A DNA stretch of 64,000 bases, taken from assembly GCA_007695285.1 (NCBI GenBank), contig REEC01000125.1, forward strand, positions 1 through 64,000. The letters run 5' to 3'. Both the position numbers and the translations under genes were made by a program. Source of the stretch: Spirochaetaceae bacterium (GTDB lineage Bacteria > Spirochaetota > Spirochaetia > DSM-27196 > PXBQ01). The notes below the pieces were generated by a model, which saw nothing but the letters and a program-made list of their open reading frames with translations, made no database searches and was not told the DNA's origin. This document shows positions 45,294 to 54,532 of the stretch, piece by piece (the stretch's first letter is position 1; the number at the start of each line of letters is the position of its first letter).

Positions 45294-46820
45294 ATGCCGG
45301 GTAAAGATTTCATCGAGGTCCTTTCGCATCGGTGCGCGGGACTCCTTCGCATCGCGACCTCCGTCGACCGGTGTGACGACCCGAGTGCATGTTTCACGCG
45401 TTCTCTTCTCGGCGAGATGTTGTACGAGGCATCGAGCGTAGAGGAGTTACTCGACGCGTGTGGAGCGCGCCGAAACCTGAAATGGGGACCGTTCCGTCAG
45501 GCGGTCGCCGCGACCAAACTCTTTTCGCACGTCGCGTACGTTCTGCTTCACATCAAATTGTTTTATCCTAGTTACAAGCTGCTTCCGATCGGCGACGATT
45601 TTGAGTCTGCGACCGATGAAGTTTTTGCGTTCACACGCAGAACGCTGACAGGAATCGCCGGCTGCATCCTGTCCGAGGCGACCGACCTCGGGATGACGCT
45701 ACCCGAACTCGACTCGTCGTGTTGCGTACCGGAGGATGAAGTTCCTACCGGTGCGCTTCCCGCGAACAAACCGAGCACCAAAGAGGCGTCGGCCGAAAAA
45801 ACAGTTGTGTACCTTGCAACGGCGTTTCTGAACCTCGCCGAAGATTCGAAGTTTCTGCGCGTAACACCCGGGCTCAACGAGGATTTCGGTCGGTTCATCC
45901 CCGAGCCGATCAACGAAGAGCGCCTCAGAAATACCGAAGAGAAATTTCATAATCTTCAGGCGCGCTACGACACGTACGTCTCCGATACCAACCTGGAGCT
46001 GCTCGATGAGAACCTGCCGGTGCTTCGGGGCCATATCTCGGTTATCTACCACTTGCTGCAAACCGCGACGGCGTTTACGCACTATATAGAGCGACACATA
46101 TACTACAGCGACTCCGAGCCGTTTCCTGAAGCGCAAAAATGTCTGAATGAAAAAGAATTACTCGCTGCTCTCGGCGAATACTCCATAAATTTCGTCGTGA
46201 GGTACATCGCGCTCGCGCGAGAGCTCTGTCGCGAAATGTTGAAAAAATACGCCGTGCGTGGAGAGATCAAAGTCCCGGCGCCGCGATACCGTGGTTTTCA
46301 CGTGCGACCGTCCACCATGATCGCAAAGATCGCGAACCACTACGGGAGCGACGTCGAGATGGAACTCAACGGTGACGCCTACGACGCGTCGGTCGCGCTC
46401 GAGCTCTTCCGGGCAAACGAAAAACTCAACGCTAGAAAAAGGCGGGTTCTCGCGGCCGACATCGGCGCGATTCTGACCGAGAACGTTGCCGCTGATCTAG
46501 ACGATTACCATGAGTTCATCCGCAACGTCGCGCGGCTATTGTTCGAGAACAAAAAGATCGTTCTGTACGAGCGAGCGCCGATCGTCGACTCCGACATCGT
46601 CCCGGCCGAGGAAGAGACACCGATCCAGTTTGCGGTGCGTGCGTTTTACCGTCTCTTCACGATGGGGAAGATCGACGTTGAACTCAACTCCACGGTTACT
46701 TTTCGCGGTGATATGCGCGTCCTTGATGACATTCGGTTACTCGCGGAGAACGGTTACGGTGAAGACGATTTTGGGAATAACCTGCCGCTCCCGCCTGAGC
46801 TGCGGTACCTACGGACCTGA
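45294..46820 (+). CDS. Large protein with embedded HPr-like phosphocarrier domain
   Basis: A 508-aa soluble protein of unusual architecture. The first 320 residues are helical and unfamiliar. Residues about 322-410 match HPr: the active-site block is RGFHVRPST with His336 where HPr has GLHARPA, followed by the helix AKIANHYGS and strand VEMELNGDAYDASVALELF. A helical C-terminal tail (410-508) follows. It could accept phosphate from the PtsP encoded at 13389, but the Ser46 region is not conserved. No Shine-Dalgarno is obvious at 45294. I know of no function for this arrangement. Confidence 0.75.
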   Translation: MPGKDFIEVLSHRCAGLLRIATSVDRCDDPSACFTRSLLGEMLYEASSVEELLDACGARRNLKWGPFRQAVAATKLFSHVAYVLLHIKLFYPSYKLLPIGDDFESATDEVFAFTRRTLTGIAGCILSEATDLGMTLPELDSSCCVPEDEVPTGALPANKPSTKEASAEKTVVYLATAFLNLAEDSKFLRVTPGLNEDFGRFIPEPINEERLRNTEEKFHNLQARYDTYVSDTNLELLDENLPVLRGHISVIYHLLQTATAFTHYIERHIYYSDSEPFPEAQKCLNEKELLAALGEYSINFVVRYIALARELCREMLKKYAVRGEIKVPAPRYRGFHVRPSTMIAKIANHYGSDVEMELNGDAYDASVALELFRANEKLNARKRRVLAADIGAILTENVAADLDDYHEFIRNVARLLFENKKIVLYERAPIVDSDIVPAEEETPIQFAVRAFYRLFTMGKIDVELNSTVTFRGDMRVLDDIRLLAENGYGEDDFGNNLPLPPELRYLRT

Positions 46821-46886: not shown

Positions 46887-47663
46887 TCACTCTTTCCACG
46901 GGAATATCATTCCGCGGAGCGTTCGTTTTCCGACGCGTTCTTTGTCGTCGATCAACAAGGCGTCCCACGGGATCTTGCGTCTATTTGCGTCGGGGTTTTC
47001 TTCCAGATAGTCGTACTTGTACATCCGTAATTTGAATCCCGCCTGATACCACAACAAAAACCCACCAATACCCGGAATCAGAAATGCCGTTGCCGCGGAG
47101 ATCACGACGATTGCGATCGCCGCGATCGCCGCGAAGAGCGCGAACATCGTGTTGTCAAAAAAAATCACGAAACATTTTCGAAGGACTTTTCCGATTTTTG
47201 TGTCGAGGCGGGCGCGAATTGGAAAGAAAAACTGCGACGAGAGAAGCCATACGACGCTGGCCCAGAACAGGAACACCATCGCCGCGAGTCCCATGAGGTT
47301 CTGCATCGAGCTGTACACCGGGAACGCGACGTTCAAGATGAAGAAGTGCAGAAGGAAGATTGCGGCGAGAATTGCACTCGACACCCATGACTCGCGGATA
47401 TACCCGAAAAATTCTTTTATTTCCGGAGCTTTGTAATCGGCGATGTCACGCGCGCTGAGCGATGCCGCGCCCGCGTAGATAAAAAACAGAAAAACGCCGA
47501 GTATCAACGAGAACAGCGACAACGCAGGACTCGCCTCGATCAGGAGTTCCGGGATGAAAACCGGAAACGCAAGAATCACGATGAAGCCGAGATTCAAGAG
47601 AATGATCGCGAGAAAATTATCCCAGAGATCGAAGAACCATTTTTTTATCAGGAATAACGCCAT
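46887..47663 (-). CDS. Polytopic membrane protein of unknown function
   Basis: A 258-aa inner-membrane protein with five or six helices (LAIILLNLGFIVILAFPVF, LFSLILGVFLFFIYAGA, SSAILAAIFLLHFFILN, LMGLAAMVFLFWASVVW, MFALFAAIAAIAIVVIS). The C-terminal 55 residues are basic and cytoplasmic. It resembles the loose DUF624/YesL-like class, but I cannot place it. The ATG is 8 nt from a consensus -10 and lacks a ribosome site, so the mRNA is probably leaderless. Confidence 0.75.
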   Translation of the reverse strand: MALFLIKKWFFDLWDNFLAIILLNLGFIVILAFPVFIPELLIEASPALSLFSLILGVFLFFIYAGAASLSARDIADYKAPEIKEFFGYIRESWVSSAILAAIFLLHFFILNVAFPVYSSMQNLMGLAAMVFLFWASVVWLLSSQFFFPIRARLDTKIGKVLRKCFVIFFDNTMFALFAAIAAIAIVVISAATAFLIPGIGGFLLWYQAGFKLRMYKYDYLEENPDANRRKIPWDALLIDDKERVGKRTLRGMIFPWKE

Positions 47664-47829: not shown

Positions 47830-48153
47830 ATGACGGAAATTCAACACCTTCTCGCGCTGAATATGAAACGTGCCCGGCAGAAACGGGAACTGTCGCAGAT
47901 GAAACTCGCCGAGCTGTGCGATGTCTCGACAAGCTTCATCGGCGAGATCGAGAGCGAACGCAAGTTCCCGTCGGCACACACGCTGCAAAAAATAACAAAC
48001 GCGCTCGGTTTACGTCCGTATCAGCTTTTCGCCGAGCAGGACGACTGGCAGGTGTACGAGAAGTACGACTCGATGACCGGTTTTGTTCAGGATGTCAAAC
48101 ACCGAATCGACGCCGTGCTCGACGAAGCGTTGCGTTCTCATCTCCCGCGCTAA
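47830..48153 (+). CDS. XRE-family transcriptional regulator
   Basis: A 107-aa DNA-binding protein. The lambda-repressor-type helix-turn-helix covers about residues 8-62 (MKRARQKRELSQMKLAELCDV, then SFIGEIESERKFPSAHTLQKI). The remaining 45 residues are short and helical and could mediate dimerisation; no sensor domain is visible. A palindrome immediately upstream suggests autoregulation. Neighbours are a membrane protein on the opposite strand and a TIR-like/ankyrin gene downstream. Confidence 0.85.
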   Translation: MTEIQHLLALNMKRARQKRELSQMKLAELCDVSTSFIGEIESERKFPSAHTLQKITNALGLRPYQLFAEQDDWQVYEKYDSMTGFVQDVKHRIDAVLDEALRSHLPR

Positions 48154-48251
48154 GCGCGCCGATACTCAATAACAGTAAAACTCTTCAGGATTCACGGTGA
48201 GCCACACGTGCACGGCTCGCGGTGGATCAAAAAGGTACGGTGAGCCGGGTG

Positions 48252-49145
48252 ATGGCAGCGGTTTTTTTCGGAGCAGACAGCGAGCAGATCGCGGAAAACG
48301 TTCTTCTCGCGCTTAAGAATCTAAAGTTTCCCGCGACCGCGTATCGATTCGGTCGTACGTGGGAGAAACACGACGGAGCACAACTGTGTTCACGTTTCGA
48401 TCACGCGACGCATTTCGTGCTTATCGTCGATAGCGATGCGGCTCGTTCGCGATGGTTGCCGTTTTCGCTTGGCATTGCCTTCGGCCGTTCGATGCCGGTC
48501 TATTTCTTTCTGAAATCAGAGCATGCTGTGCCGCGGTACGCACAACACATCGTGGGATTCGAACGTGTCGCGGATCTCACCGCGGTTTTCACGTCCGAGC
48601 GAAAGACGTTTGAGGCTGCGGAGATAGTTTCGAGTGCACGGAAGGCTCTTCGCGAATCGGGGGTTTTGGTGACCGACGAGTCGTACGCGCAGTGTGCTGT
48701 CGACGGCGATATCAACGCGGTTAAAAATTTTCTGCGCGCCGGGTTCAGTCCGGATACCAAGGACGATCGCGACGTACCGATTATCTCGCTCGCGATTCAG
48801 AATCGTCACACTTCGATAGTCGAGCTGCTTCTCGCTCACGGCGCGGACGTGAACGCCTCGAGCGATGCACGGAAGAACACACCGTTGATCGAAGCCGCAG
48901 CTCGCTGCGAGGTGTCGATCATGGCTCGCCTGCTCGCCGAAGGAGCACGGCTCGACGACCGGAATAACACCGGCCAGACAGCGCTCATGGTGGCGGTCGG
49001 AGAGGGATGCACCGAGGCGGTAGAACTGCTGCTCACGCACGGGGCCGATGTCACGGTCGTCGATCAACTCGGTATGACCGCGATGAAGTACGCTGCGCTG
49101 TTTCGACACGAACGAATCCGTGAGGCCCTGGAATCACACAGATAG
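48252..49145 (+). CDS. TIR-like domain fused to ankyrin repeats
   Basis: A 297-aa cytoplasmic protein. Residues 1-100 have a TIR-like flavodoxin fold pattern: strand MAAVFFGAD, a helix, THFVLIVDSDAARSRWLPF, then LGIAFGRSMPVYFFL. At the position of the NADase catalytic Glu (WxxFEL) there is Ser (WLPFSL, about residue 72), so it is unlikely to cleave NAD. Residues 140-297 hold four ankyrin repeats (SLAIQNRHTSIVELLLAHGADVN, TALMVAVGEGCTEAVELLLTHGADV). In-frame GTGs at 48222 and 48240 are alternative starts. Probably a protein-interaction scaffold. Confidence 0.72.
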   Translation: MAAVFFGADSEQIAENVLLALKNLKFPATAYRFGRTWEKHDGAQLCSRFDHATHFVLIVDSDAARSRWLPFSLGIAFGRSMPVYFFLKSEHAVPRYAQHIVGFERVADLTAVFTSERKTFEAAEIVSSARKALRESGVLVTDESYAQCAVDGDINAVKNFLRAGFSPDTKDDRDVPIISLAIQNRHTSIVELLLAHGADVNASSDARKNTPLIEAAARCEVSIMARLLAEGARLDDRNNTGQTALMVAVGEGCTEAVELLLTHGADVTVVDQLGMTAMKYAALFRHERIREALESHR

Positions 49146-49200: not shown

Positions 49201-49977
49201 ATGCCCGAGAGCGCCACGATCCATATCTTTCATCTTGCACGTAAAGACGACAAAGTGCTTTTCCTCCATACCTCCGACGGTTCGCACCTCGTTCAAGCGC
49301 TCGAGGCCGGGACCGTACGCGGTGTGTACGGGCGCGAACCGAAGGTGGAGTCTCTCACGGAGTTGCGAACGCGGCTATACGGGATCATCGAGTCCGAGAT
49401 TCGCAGGTGGATCGGCGAGAAGAACTTCCTGACTCGCTTTGTGATCTCGGCGGCGATCTTTCTCGTGTCGTTTCTCGTTCTCTCGTTCGCGGTCCCGACG
49501 CCTATCCCGATACTCGATGAACTCATCTTCTCGCTGGTCGCCGCCGGTGCGGTTTATGTCGCCCTTGGGCGACGCGATATGAAGTCGGAGCTGGTGTTGT
49601 CGCGACGGGTTGCGTTGCGCTCGAAACTCGACCGAGTCGTATTCGAGGAGGACAGCGCGGTCCACCAGATCGAGGCGATCCTGGATGAGATGGAGGATAT
49701 CGGACCGGCGGCGGTTTTGTCGTCGATGGACTCTACCGATGTACCGGTTTTCCGCGATGATGAGATTCCGATCGCGCGAGAAGCGGTTTCGTACCTTCAC
49801 GCGATGTTCGCAAAAAGAGAGCTACGACGCGCCGAGAGAAGAATGGCGCGCGCACGGCGGAAGGATTCGGTCAAGGACGTGAGCGCAATCAAGAAAAAGG
49901 TCATGAACGCGACGGGCGACGTCCCGCTATTCCTATCTTACCTGAAACTCAAAACGACGGTCACCGAACGGCGATAA
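49201..49977 (+). CDS. Membrane-anchored hypothetical protein with two helices
   Basis: A 258-aa protein I do not recognise. An N-terminal cytoplasmic region (1-75; MPESATIHIFHLARKDDKVLF) precedes two adjacent transmembrane segments (FVISAAIFLVSFLVLSFAV and LDELIFSLVAAGAVYVAL) separated by a short Pro-rich turn. The rest (about 125-258) is cytoplasmic, charged and helical (RRAERRMARARRKDS). It follows the TIR-like/ankyrin gene by 55 nt but has its own promoter. It ends 31 nt from the convergent UPF0164 gene. Confidence 0.7.
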   Translation: MPESATIHIFHLARKDDKVLFLHTSDGSHLVQALEAGTVRGVYGREPKVESLTELRTRLYGIIESEIRRWIGEKNFLTRFVISAAIFLVSFLVLSFAVPTPIPILDELIFSLVAAGAVYVALGRRDMKSELVLSRRVALRSKLDRVVFEEDSAVHQIEAILDEMEDIGPAAVLSSMDSTDVPVFRDDEIPIAREAVSYLHAMFAKRELRRAERRMARARRKDSVKDVSAIKKKVMNATGDVPLFLSYLKLKTTVTERR

Positions 49978-50008: not shown

Positions 50009-51262
50009 TCAAAGCTCATCCTCCGGGGCGATGGATTCGTCGAACCGGAGCGTATCCATCCTCTCCTGCAGCGAAAGCATCGTTTTGGCCGTATCTCGGG
50101 TCTCGGCCGCGGGTTGAAACCGTGGGTCGAGTTCGAGCGCCTTTTCGGCGAGGTCGATCGTGAGTTCGATGTTGCCTTCGGCGAACGCGACAAGCGCATC
50201 GAGATAGAGCTCTTCGACCTGCTGCTCAACCGCGCGGCGCCCGCGATCGCCGAACGCGAATCCGGCTTGTACGCTGAATCTGTCGAACCGATCAAGCTGC
50301 GTCGTCATGTCGAGCGTGTAGTTGACCGCGAGCCGTACCGGTTGGAGGTCGATGACCGTTCCGAGGGAAAACCTCGGGTTGTTCCCTCGCCAGAGGAATC
50401 CAGCCTGGCTCGTGATGAAGTCGGTCACCCGTACGCGTGTACCGATCGCGAATCCCGGCATCTCGCGCTCGTGGTCGGTGAAGAGCGAGAGTGGTACGTT
50501 GTAGTCGAACGCGACAAGAACGGGTCGGAACGGCGAGTACGCGAGGCCCACCGAAAGCATCGTCGGAACGGGGTCCCCGCCCACCGGCGGCCCCACGTTT
50601 CGAACCGTGACACCGACCGCGGTGTTTCGTTCGCGCGCGGAGTACAACTTGAGGAAGTCGAATCGCGTCAACGCGCCGATATCGGCCATTACCGCAACGG
50701 CGCTTTGGTCAGGATAGATCGAGTCGGGGATGTAGCGATACGCGAGCTTGGCGTTGGCCCCGATACTCACGCCGGAAAAATAAAACCCGCGCAGGAAGTT
50801 GTACGCCGCGTTCACCCCGACGACCGACTCGGAGTACCGAAAAGACCCGATGTTGTAGCCGTACGCGTCGTAATGCGTAAACGGCACGTGGAGCATTTTG
50901 GCCGCAAATCCGAGCCCGAGGTCGTCCTGCCGTATGGTGTACGCGAACCCTTCCATACTCGTATCGGCGATCAAATTGGTGTGGTAAAACGCCGCCTCGG
51001 TGTTCACGAGCGATGCGCTGGCGGCCGGATTGCCGTCGAGGAAGCTCAAGTCCCGCCCGACAGCCGTGTACGCGGTTCCCATCGCTTCGGCTTCCCCCCC
51101 CATCGATATAAGGAGAGTCGGGAACGTGCGTAGACCGGTGGCTTCATCGAGGCCGAGGCCGTTCGAGATCCGGTGTAGGAACTCAAACACCTGGTCCGCA
51201 GGCGCGCGCGGAGCAGCGAGAACAAGCGCAAAAACGACAAGAAAAACGCGCCACTTTTTCAT
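50009..51262 (-). CDS. UPF0164 / FadL-like outer-membrane protein
   Basis: A 417-aa exported beta-barrel protein. A signal peptide (MKKWRVFLVVFALVLA...) is followed by the PorV/UPF0164 block SMGGEAEAMGTAYTAVGRDLSFLDGNPAA and many short amphipathic strands, as in the treponemal FadL-like family. The C-terminal 60 residues are helical and TPR-like (ALVAFAEGNIELTIDLAEKALELDPRFQPA) and would face the periplasm. It probably moves long-chain fatty acids or other hydrophobic molecules. ATG 51262 has GGTGG 5 nt upstream. Confidence 0.85.
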   Translation of the reverse strand: MKKWRVFLVVFALVLAAPRAPADQVFEFLHRISNGLGLDEATGLRTFPTLLISMGGEAEAMGTAYTAVGRDLSFLDGNPAASASLVNTEAAFYHTNLIADTSMEGFAYTIRQDDLGLGFAAKMLHVPFTHYDAYGYNIGSFRYSESVVGVNAAYNFLRGFYFSGVSIGANAKLAYRYIPDSIYPDQSAVAVMADIGALTRFDFLKLYSARERNTAVGVTVRNVGPPVGGDPVPTMLSVGLAYSPFRPVLVAFDYNVPLSLFTDHEREMPGFAIGTRVRVTDFITSQAGFLWRGNNPRFSLGTVIDLQPVRLAVNYTLDMTTQLDRFDRFSVQAGFAFGDRGRRAVEQQVEELYLDALVAFAEGNIELTIDLAEKALELDPRFQPAAETRDTAKTMLSLQERMDTLRFDESIAPEDEL

Positions 51263-51511
51263 TTCACCACCAAATATACTACGCATCGCATGGTTTTACT
51301 ATCGGCCACGCGTTTCTCGCGTTTCTTGCGTCGGCCGGCACAAGAAACGCGGAATCGATTACAGTATCGACCTAAAGCGATCGTTCGTTCACCGAAACGC
51401 CGCACGTCGCAAGGGGTTCGGCGTGTTTTTTTCGCAGTGTGCGATGACGGGTGTTTTTTTGCCGATCATTATAGTACTATTCCTGTAGCGTCACTGGGGG
51501 GTTCGGATCAG

Positions 51512-54500
51512 GTGGAGACGACCTGTTCTGCAAGCAAAAAACGGTTAGTTTTTCTTCTCTTTTTTTTCGCCGTCGGCGTTATGGCCTTTGGTGCGGGTAG
51601 GCGCGAAGACCCGGTCGAGACTGCCCGTTCTCTCATCGCACGGAATCAACTCAATGAGGCGATTTTGGTGCTCGAGAACGTCATTCGAAACGACCCGGAA
51701 CGGATTCGCGAAGCGGAAAACCTGCTCAGAACTATTCGGCGAATCCGTGGGGAGTACAATCTCCTTTTTGAAGAGCTGATAGAACACATAATCAACAATC
51801 CGGACGATCTCGAGAGAACGCTCGAGATCATCGCCGAGATGGAAGCCCTCGACGAGTTTCCGAACCCACGCGTGAGGCGCCAGATCGACGAGGCGCGAGT
51901 CACCGCGCAGCTCGCGTACGACCGTACGGTGCTCACGGGTATTCTCGAGACTGCACGAGAATCGCTCGCGGCCGGCCGGCATGCAGAGGCGGTCAGGACG
52001 TACCTGACCGGTTTTTCGCTTCAGAGACGGGAGTTCGAGGAACGTGGATACGGCGAAATTTTCCAGAATGCGGTCGAGTCTGCTCGCGCGGAGATCGTGG
52101 CACAGGCGACGGACTTTGCCTCGCGAGCCGACGACGTGGTCCTAACCGCGCGTCGGCTCGCGACCGATATCCGCGAGGGAGAGTTGGAGCGAGCCGACGC
52201 GGGTTTCGCCGCTCTGATGGAAGATATTGTCGCTCTCGACGAAGCGCGGAGCGCCGTCGTCGCGGCTCACGCAGTTCTCGTGCGACAGCGCTCCCAAGTG
52301 GGGCTTCAATTTCCCGACAGCCCGGTAGATTGGCACCTAGTTTTCCTTAATACGCTGACGACCGGTCGCCAGGATATCGAAGCACGAGAGGGAATCGTTT
52401 CGATCATCGACACGGCGTGGGACACCGTAGCTACCGAACTTTCCGATACGATCGCTACACGACTCGCTGAGAAGACGCAAGAGTATGAGCGGTTCATCGA
52501 ACAGGCCGAGTGGTCACGAGTCACAGCCGAAACGGAATCGATTGTTCAACTGAACAAACTCGCACAACGAGCGTTGTTGCTCGCCGAGCGACGGGTCGAT
52601 GTGCCCGAGATGACGATTACCGAGATCCGGGAACTCGAGCTAACCGATGCGGCAACCGTCGCGTTCGCACGGTACGATGTCGGCGCCGAGTCGGCGCGCG
52701 TGTTTGCCGATCTGTCCGCGATCGTCGTGCAGACGGACGAGGCCGAATCGCTGGAAACCGAGGATCTTGAAGACTTAAGGATTCGTCGCCGTGTATTCGA
52801 GTCGCTTCACGACGAACTCGATATTCTGTTCGCCGGCTGGACCGACTCGGCGAATCTGTATCGCGACTTCGTTTCGGACGCGATACAGACCGAAGACGCG
52901 ACCCGAATTTCCTCGGTAATCGAGTTTACGACGACGCGCCTCGGAGACGAATTTATCCGTGCACGCGATGGAGAAATCCGCGCGGTCGTGCGCGCGATCG
53001 AGATCGAAGCGGAACGAATCGAAGGAACCGTCGATCCGATAGCGGAACGAATTACGGATATCGATACGCTACTCGAAGGCGTCGACGAGTCGGACGACCC
53101 TGAGTCGGTTGTTGTGTTTCGCTATCCCGATCGCGCACTCGAAGAGTACGAAGAACTCCGCGTAGAGGCAGTCGAAGTGCGCGATGCACACCGGGCGATT
53201 GTCGAGACATACGCCGAGGAGAAGCCCTACGTCTTGGGGGACGATCGGTTTGCCGAGGTGTTGTCGGTCGTCGATTCGCAGTTTGAGCGCGTGAGCGAGG
53301 CTCTCGCGAGGATCGATGATGGAATCGCGCGAGCGGAATCCGCGATCGACGAAGCTGTCGCTTTGATCGCCGAAGGGCGTGAGTTGGTTATGCAGGCACG
53401 GAGCGCGATCGCCGCGGCCCAGCTGAACCCGGCCGAGACCGCGTGGTCGAACGCGCGTGACCGTTTTTTTGAAGCACTGGAACTGCGGGAGGACCCGAAT
53501 ACACGGTCTGAAACCGACGCGTTGATCCGGGACGTCGGTCTCGAGCTTCAGGATCTGCGCAACCGATTGGTCGTTCAGGAGGTCCGTGAACTCGTGACGG
53601 AAGCCCGGGCTTTGTACGGTCGCGACGACTACTATTCGGCAAGGGAGTATCTCCTGACCGCGCGCGAACTCTGGGCCCAGACGAACCCGACCGACCCGAA
53701 CAGCGAGGTCGAGAGTCTGTTGCGGCTCGTCAGCGCGGCGATCGCGTTTGCCGATGAACGCGACGTAACGGAGACACATCCGCTTTTCCCGATCGTCGGA
53801 AACTACCTGAGTCTTGCGCGGTCCGATTTTGAACGCGGTCGAAATCTGTATAACTCAAACAATGTGGCTGAAGGTGATATCCTGTTGCGTCGGGCGCTCG
53901 AAAACCTTCGCGCCGTACGAGACATCCAGGCGAATAACTGGACAGCTAAACTGCTCGAGCTGCAGATTACGCGGCTGCGTGAACCCGATAACTTCGGGGA
54001 GATTTTTCAGGCACGGTACGAGGAAGCCGTCTCACGGCGTTCGGACGACGCGGTCGCCGCGCTGACCGATCTGCAGGCGCTTCGCGAGATTCAACCCGGA
54101 TATCGGGACATCGAGGCGCTGATCGTCGAACTCGAAATCGAGCTTGGGCTGCGTCCCGACCCGATAACACAAGCGCGAATCGCCGAGTCGAACCGTCTCT
54201 TGAACCAGGCGCGCGGGATCGCCGACACGACCGACCGAAACGCTTTGACTGTAGCGGCAAGTTTGCTCGAACAAGCCCTCGAGGCAAATCCCGAGAACAC
54301 TGCCGCGCGAAATCTACTCGACACCGTGCGTGTGACGCTCGGCGGTCGGGCAACCGTCGCGTTATCATCCGCCGATGAACAACAGTATCGGAGGGCAGAA
54401 GCACAGTTCATCGAGGGCAACATCGCGCAAGCGTTCGTCATTGTCGAGCGTTTGTTTCTCGACGAGAACAACCGTGCGTACCCACCACTCATCGATTTGC

Positions 54501-54532
54501 GGAGGCGAATATCGACACGACTCGGGATTTGA
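51512..54532 (+). CDS. Large secreted coiled-coil/TPR-like protein
   Basis: A 1,006-aa exported protein. After a short basic start comes a hydrophobic signal segment (RLVFLLFFFAVGVMAFGAG), then almost entirely Glu/Ala/Arg-rich helices. TPR-like pairs occur at both ends (ARSLIARNQLNEAILVLENVIRNDP; AEAQFIEGNIAQAFVIVERLF). No enzyme motif is visible. It probably forms a long periplasmic scaffold. GTG 51512 is preferred to the 51290 frame, which runs over a TATAGT/TACTAT -10 region and has no signal peptide at its start. It overlaps the phosphatase gene, so the two are translationally coupled. Confidence 0.75.
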   Translation: METTCSASKKRLVFLLFFFAVGVMAFGAGRREDPVETARSLIARNQLNEAILVLENVIRNDPERIREAENLLRTIRRIRGEYNLLFEELIEHIINNPDDLERTLEIIAEMEALDEFPNPRVRRQIDEARVTAQLAYDRTVLTGILETARESLAAGRHAEAVRTYLTGFSLQRREFEERGYGEIFQNAVESARAEIVAQATDFASRADDVVLTARRLATDIREGELERADAGFAALMEDIVALDEARSAVVAAHAVLVRQRSQVGLQFPDSPVDWHLVFLNTLTTGRQDIEAREGIVSIIDTAWDTVATELSDTIATRLAEKTQEYERFIEQAEWSRVTAETESIVQLNKLAQRALLLAERRVDVPEMTITEIRELELTDAATVAFARYDVGAESARVFADLSAIVVQTDEAESLETEDLEDLRIRRRVFESLHDELDILFAGWTDSANLYRDFVSDAIQTEDATRISSVIEFTTTRLGDEFIRARDGEIRAVVRAIEIEAERIEGTVDPIAERITDIDTLLEGVDESDDPESVVVFRYPDRALEEYEELRVEAVEVRDAHRAIVETYAEEKPYVLGDDRFAEVLSVVDSQFERVSEALARIDDGIARAESAIDEAVALIAEGRELVMQARSAIAAAQLNPAETAWSNARDRFFEALELREDPNTRSETDALIRDVGLELQDLRNRLVVQEVRELVTEARALYGRDDYYSAREYLLTARELWAQTNPTDPNSEVESLLRLVSAAIAFADERDVTETHPLFPIVGNYLSLARSDFERGRNLYNSNNVAEGDILLRRALENLRAVRDIQANNWTAKLLELQITRLREPDNFGEIFQARYEEAVSRRSDDAVAALTDLQALREIQPGYRDIEALIVELEIELGLRPDPITQARIAESNRLLNQARGIADTTDRNALTVAASLLEQALEANPENTAARNLLDTVRVTLGGRATVALSSADEQQYRRAEAQFIEGNIAQAFVIVERLFLDENNRAYPPLIDLRRRISTRLGI

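Follow-up and report, generated by a model that had tools for sequence, protein, structure and literature searches.

A TIR-like/ankyrin protein family of the Spirochaetia that lacks the catalytic glutamate, a candidate adaptor outside defence

It is easy to assume that a bacterial TIR domain marks a defence enzyme, and a spirochaete gene that joins a TIR-like domain to ankyrin repeats beside an XRE-type regulator raises the question of whether its product serves a small defence system or has been put to other work. The gene lies in the window, the whole stretch of 64,000 nucleotides analysed here, on a contig from a 4.4 Mb Spirochaetaceae genome in 283 contigs; the closest named record found is the Spirochaetaceae metagenome assembly PXBQ01000072.1 (93% identical). 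An earlier note, made from the sequence alone, had placed the open reading frame at 48252-49145 on the plus strand, where we also find it, encoding 297 amino acids counted from the ATG at 48252. Three further in-frame starts (GTG at 48222, 48240 and 48249) precede this ATG. A Shine-Dalgarno-like AAAAAGG immediately 5' of 48240 favours the GTG at that position, and the usual start of the family in our alignment, MKVGIFF, is compatible with 48249 or 48252; the protein may begin at any of the four.

The protein is predicted to fold as a TIR-like domain (residues 1-105, 48252-48566, plus strand), a long linking helix (residues 106-137, 48567-48662) in which A129, L133 and G137 are conserved across the 99-member alignment, and an ankyrin stack (residues 138-297, 48663-49142). 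Pfam Ank_2 matches the window's protein with an E-value of 2.5e-23, ankyrin models of Pfam match all 18 members tested, and the AlphaFold2 model places five helix pairs between residues 142 and 296, so the four ankyrin repeats proposed earlier were right in kind and one short in number. The proposed fusion itself holds throughout the family, as a profile of the N domain and one of the ankyrin part each find their target in all 99 usable members, which come from many families, a co-occurrence of two domains that is beyond chance. The PADLOC models PDC-M72A, 'Ankyrin' and MzaA were rejected as a defence identity because their matches span the ankyrin part only; the NCBIfam effector models AnkH and AnkG, as well as MzaA, likewise match the ankyrin repeats only, far below their cut-offs.

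These members come from 101 loci, namely the window, 60 matches (52 from the phylum searches and 8 from the order search) and 40 of 48 further matches; six class matches (G209, G217, G315, G329, G356 and G423) and two from outside the class (G050 and G185) were not fetched. The latter two are not counted as members, and the place of the G050 match is also matched by TIR_2. One hundred of the 101 loci hold family members, and dropping L278, a free-standing TIR protein, and L279, which is cut by a contig end, leaves the 99 members used below.

A first profile matched 62 of 392 phylum genomes and a wider one 100 of 392, 98 of them in the same class; these presence counts are lower bounds, and the absences upper bounds, because G413 proved to hold a member, and G036 an ankyrin-part match, that the searches had missed. 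Within the window's order, where every candidate was scored, 21 of 46 genomes match, each once, and 25 have no match; among the 20 genomes of best quality the corresponding numbers are 11 and 9. The gene is nearly always present once: one phylum genome has two matches, one of them a free-standing TIR. Since the phylum searches scored at most 10 candidates per genome, the single-copy statement is limited accordingly there. None of the seven listed genomes (1.0-1.8 Mb) of family f12, by their size presumably the Borreliaceae, matches the wider profile. The family is widespread in the class Spirochaetia but patchy.

In an IQ-TREE tree of the 99 members, rooted at the midpoint only, the 18 GTDB family labels can be explained by 18 changes, against a minimum of 17 and a mean of 45.9 for shuffled labels. 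This grouping of labels argues for mostly vertical inheritance with losses. Families f10 and f14 form single clades (support 98/90). Families f2 and f23 require two origins each even when only well-supported branches are considered, with f22 nested inside f2, and the tree does not unite f11, f3 or f18 into one clade each.

The earlier note had assigned the N-terminus to a TIR-type fold, and structure comparison points the same way. Two AlphaFold2 models, computed from nine-row alignments, have a mean pLDDT of 90 (whole protein) and 87 (residues 1-137 by themselves); strands alternate with helices in residues 2-103, and the long helix spans residues 106-135. The best Foldseek match in the Protein Data Bank, and the sole one at E < 0.001, is EcThsB (8wcf, E 8.7e-5), followed at E 1e-3 to 2e-3 by another ThsB (6lhy), NanR and flavodoxin-like proteins. 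VIA-align ranks the RPS4/RRS1 TIR structure first (Z 12.5, 118 residues, r.m.s.d. 2.5 Å), with SPARTA TIR-APAZ (12.1), deoxyribosyltransferase 7o62 (11.9), SARM1 (11.6), ThsB (11.5) and PurE (10.5) close behind; the rows from Z 12.5 to 10.5 are a mixture of TIR, nucleoside deoxyribosyltransferase (NDT), DNPH1, STING and PurE structures. Because many of these scores are near ties, the fold alone indicates a TIR-like or NDT-like domain without separating the two, and on the predicted model the fold test by itself separates TIR poorly, since NanR and flavodoxin-like proteins (Foldseek E 1.5e-3 to 3e-3) and PurE match too.

Profile comparisons give more detail. A 61-row alignment of the family N domain, used as the common query, reached hhalign probabilities of 92.0% with ThsB_TIR, 90.3% with TIR_2 and 91.6% with NDT, compared with 0.16% for a receiver domain, 5.1% and 0.37% for the N and C domains of MurG, 0.27% for a hydrolase and 0.27% for HolB, a contrast that is partly one of depth because the control alignments are shallower (Neff 2.0-3.9 versus 4.4-5.2). 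The target alignments came from phylum genomes (15 rows for ThsB_TIR, 13 for TIR_2 and 13 for NDT), with some listed matches unused and three chosen proteins dropped as unreadable. Against profile A6, built from family members alone, single sequences reached at least 10 bits in 2 of 15 cases for ThsB_TIR, 2 of 13 for TIR_2, 3 of 13 for NDT and 0 of 84 for controls, so that most TIR proteins score low when taken singly.

The exception is the free-standing 176-residue TIR protein of locus L278 (5953-6480), which A6 finds at E 5.8e-16 and 59 bits, which Pfam TIR_2 matches at E 1.6e-11, and in which the ankyrin-part profile finds nothing. As judged by these sequence scores, it is the one strong link between the family and TIR domains, and it is the nearest Glu-bearing relative found here. 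At L278:5612-6480 (genome G311), a ThsB_TIR protein lies upstream of this Glu-keeping TIR_2 protein and overlaps it, an arrangement that resembles a Thoeris-type TIR pair. No curated TIR profile of Pfam matches any of 18 members at E-values up to 5, the PADLOC ThsB models match the N domain weakly, at best with E 6.9e-5, and a Pfam TIR_2 search of the window's order matched 2 of 46 genomes, none of them at family loci. Against the Protein Data Bank, the N-domain profile matched nothing significantly (best E 0.15, to a designed Rossmann protein; ThsB E 0.8); the full-length profile matched 520 sequences, the best 60 of which match through the ankyrin part. With Foldseek, VIA-align and the profile comparisons in agreement, a TIR-type fold of residues 1-121 is supported by the predicted model and the sequence profiles.

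What sets this domain apart is the residue at its expected active site. The WVPFEIG of the L278 protein aligns with WLPFSLG in the window, which assigns Ser72 (codon 48465-48467, plus strand) to the slot of the catalytic Glu. In that alignment the Glu of W-V-P-F-E-I-G stands over the family pattern W-x-x-F-x-x-G, and the ThsB, TIR_2 and NDT profile alignments, which share one query profile, also put the Ser in the Glu slot. Across the 99 members, including the window, the slot holds Leu in 22, Ala in 20, Val in 18, Ile in 17, Phe in 12, Met in 4, Thr in 4, Ser in 1 and Tyr in 1, and never Glu, as also in an alignment of 61 members. The replacement of the NAD-cleaving Glu by Ser, as first proposed for the window's copy, is thus borne out by the profile registers, by the L278 alignment and by the count of 0 of 99. 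All examined enzymatic TIRs are reported to need this Glu (PMC10022894), and since the slot is never Glu, the known TIR chemistry appears to be lost across the family and not in the window's copy alone. In this respect the earlier suggestion, a scaffold or sensor without catalysis, stands as the probable way of working.

One alternative places the domain nearer to the nucleoside deoxyribosyltransferases and lets it keep enzyme activity, its catalytic residue having moved to another position. The hhalign probability to NDT is as high as that to TIR, F-S-L-G here stands over F-E-V-G, the Z-score to 7o62 falls among those to TIR structures, and the share of single sequences that attain 10 bits is similar for NDT and TIR. 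Against this, no position in residues 1-137 is acidic in at least 60% of the 99 members; moreover, the best single NDT sequence scores 13.7 bits against the family profile, compared with 23.8 and 59 bits for TIR proteins. We regard this alternative as highly improbable.

A second alternative keeps the pocket and gives up the chemistry: a pseudoenzyme sensor would bind a nucleotide such as NAD or ADP-ribose without turnover and report through the ankyrin stack. Loss of the Glu may be compatible with continued ligand binding, the TIR/NDT-type fold is in place, and the glycines that follow the lost Glu are kept (G74 in 97 of 99 and G78 in 79 of 99), as is H54 (73 of 99). H54 is, however, the sole polar residue kept in at least 60% of members within residues 1-137, and mean pairwise identity is 16% over residues 1-105, unlike what a conserved ligand pocket would lead one to expect, so that we hold a sensor to be unlikely.

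Identity rises to 23% in residues 106-137 and to 42% in the ankyrin part, where part of the value is generic ankyrin consensus. Most polar positions of the kind considered here vary in generic ankyrin repeats. In this family six of them are nearly fixed among the 99 members: R183 (98), D206 (97), R207 (98), Q242 (99), D271 (99) and Y280 (99). Of the 27 positions with the strongest conservation, the window's copy deviates at 5, including R183 to Q and D206 to A, so that its genus may have a different binding site. A sister genome also carries these two departures.

We next consider the partners. The earlier note had described an XRE regulator upstream and a two-helix membrane protein downstream, and both are present in the window: a 107-residue XRE-type helix-turn-helix protein at 47830-48153 (plus strand; HTH_3, E 1.5e-9) and a 258-residue membrane-type protein at 49201-49977 (plus strand), whose two hydrophobic stretches were identified by eye and which has a weak DUF6116 match below the cut-off. 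Beyond them lies a recurring flanking block, consisting of a UPF0164 protein at 50009-51286 (minus strand; PF03687, E 1.5e-41) and a large TPR-like protein at 51290-54532 (plus strand; cluster c3, with TPR in Pfam at sub-threshold level only). Further upstream, a 508-residue protein at 45294-46820 contains an HPr-like segment at about residues 333-370 (TIGR01003 E 4.1e-5 and PF00381 E 0.0025, both below the cut-off) and is unassigned over the rest of its length, and a 258-residue hydrophobic protein at 46887-47663 belongs to cluster c9, with members in 13 of 61 loci; neither Pfam (E up to 1) nor NCBIfam (E up to 0.1) has a model that matches it. By eye, from the list of open reading frames, the rest of the window resembles house-keeping genes.

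Of the 101 loci, counting genes within 400 bases, 37 have a same-strand murG downstream, 21 have the membrane protein downstream (excluding L159 and L160, where it follows after one more gene), 10 have a DnaE-family polymerase upstream and 9 the XRE regulator upstream, and in 32 none of the profiles used matched; the neighbour counts are lower bounds because several loci end near the gene. Pfam and NCBIfam gave the names of neighbours in selected examples (one MurG, for instance, by TIGR01133); the others were assigned by profile or by eye. One of the contexts is murG-cvpA-holB; the MurG loci come from two GTDB families, 34 from f10 and 3 from f14. At L122, one of the 32 loci, the order is mreB-mreC-mreD-pbp2-rodA followed directly by the family gene, and other settings include queA, prfA and flgE. 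The neighbours that were named belong to house-keeping and vary from lineage to lineage, and with contexts that change in this way no one partner is singled out.

The membrane protein also leads a life of its own. It occurs in 153 of 297 class genomes, and at 20 of its sites, in genomes that were new or had no family match, a family member lies beside it in 6 and is absent in 14, which argues that the membrane protein can do without the pseudo-TIR gene. In one of the 6 the match is to the full profile and not to that of the N domain. At L313 the polymerase gene is followed directly by that of the membrane protein. At L303:2951-3895 an ankyrin protein upstream of the membrane protein is matched by the full profile and not by the N-domain profile, and its TIR-like part may, to go by the sequence, have eroded further. 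The polymerase, pseudo-TIR, membrane protein, UPF0164 and TPR genes look like an old neighbourhood and not like a module.

These observations bear on the reading with which the locus was introduced, a small antiphage system in which the XRE gene would be the regulator and the membrane protein a partner. Its TIR ancestry with ThsB-like relatives, the recurrence of both partners beside the gene in part of the window's order, and the patchy presence in that order, which would also suit a defence gene, speak for it. The low frequency of the XRE gene and the independence of the membrane protein, which is often found alone, speak against it, and so do the house-keeping contexts that vary by lineage, mostly vertical inheritance and retention of the gene in a 1.14 Mb genome. 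No defence gene or island was recognised at the 101 loci with our own profiles, with Pfam and NCBIfam in selected examples or by eye, and no ThsA was noticed among the neighbours as sorted by these means. The earlier note had itself named orthologues always found in conserved house-keeping contexts without these partners as the outcome that would count against it, and this is largely what the neighbourhoods show, even though both partners recur within the order. Given the neighbourhoods, the inheritance and the independence of the partner, we set the defence reading aside as having very little chance of being right.

A third alternative takes the MurG and rod-elongation loci at face value and makes the protein a cell-wall scaffold working alongside the machinery of peptidoglycan synthesis or rod elongation (MurG, MreB-RodA). 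The same-strand murG gene directly downstream at more than a third of the loci and the position after mreB-mreC-mreD-pbp2-rodA at L122 are both cell-wall contexts and speak for such a scaffold. Yet the MurG loci represent two GTDB families and the mre context is a single locus, counts from related genomes are dependent, and polymerase, queA, prfA and flgE contexts stand beside them, which leaves this specific assignment doubtful.

The reading that we prefer is a domesticated, non-catalytic TIR-ankyrin adaptor, inherited largely vertically in the class Spirochaetia and working outside defence, to which we assign a probability of about 0.5. A ThsB-like TIR domain would have been domesticated to give the ancestor of the family; with its Glu lost, the TIR-like part would no longer cleave NAD and would persist as a fold-only, fast-changing module for self-association or docking. 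The ankyrin finger tips would hold a single conserved partner in the cytoplasm, one that does not change across the class. The adaptor's likeliest workplace would be the cell envelope or its synthesis, because two different neighbourhoods, murG and mre-rodA, are cell-wall loci, although these amount to few independent events. More tentatively, and with clearly less confidence than in the adaptor itself, we propose a fuller history, in which a TIR enzyme of immunity came to be domesticated at an early stage of the Spirochaetia, lost its Glu, gained ankyrins, became a vertically inherited adaptor of envelope or cell-wall synthesis, and survives in the syphilis spirochaete with its reduced genome.

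Many families of one class carry a Glu-less, TIR-derived domain among house-keeping genes, and a TIR-like fold with an XRE gene nearby is insufficient grounds for calling a defence system. The L122 genome (1,139,633 bases) is probably that of Treponema pallidum, and its family gene would be the orthologue of TPASS_0502, a defined gene that a small spirochaete genome has retained and that is open to testing. A table row in PMC4403809 and its correction PMC5951579 names TPASS_0502 'Ankyrin repeat protein(protein binding)' and TPASS_0496 a TPR protein. As listed there, the name covers the ankyrin part only, without the TIR likeness, and a defence-type domain turned to other work would thus be hidden under the label 'ankyrin repeat protein'. 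We found no account of the function or the TIR likeness of the family in searches of the open-access literature, including PMC5956850 and these two papers.

Compared with known systems, the family resembles the nucleoside 2-deoxyribosyltransferases (PF05014) in its related fold and in an F-x-x-G followed by a second Gly, and differs from them in lacking the nucleophile Glu (0 of 99) and in single-sequence scores that stay below those of the best TIR proteins. TIR domains are described as canonically scaffolds that act through multimerisation (PMC8494770); the scaffold role of innate-immunity TIR proteins would be alike by analogy, whereas the family here has no immune setting and its multimerisation is putative. 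From the ThsB and TIR_2 proteins of Thoeris (PF08937, PF13676) the family is set apart by the missing Glu in 99 of 99 members, the ankyrin fusion, the house-keeping neighbours and largely vertical inheritance, yet it shares with them the fold, the profile similarity, the Trp/Glu register and the 59-bit protein that bridges the two.
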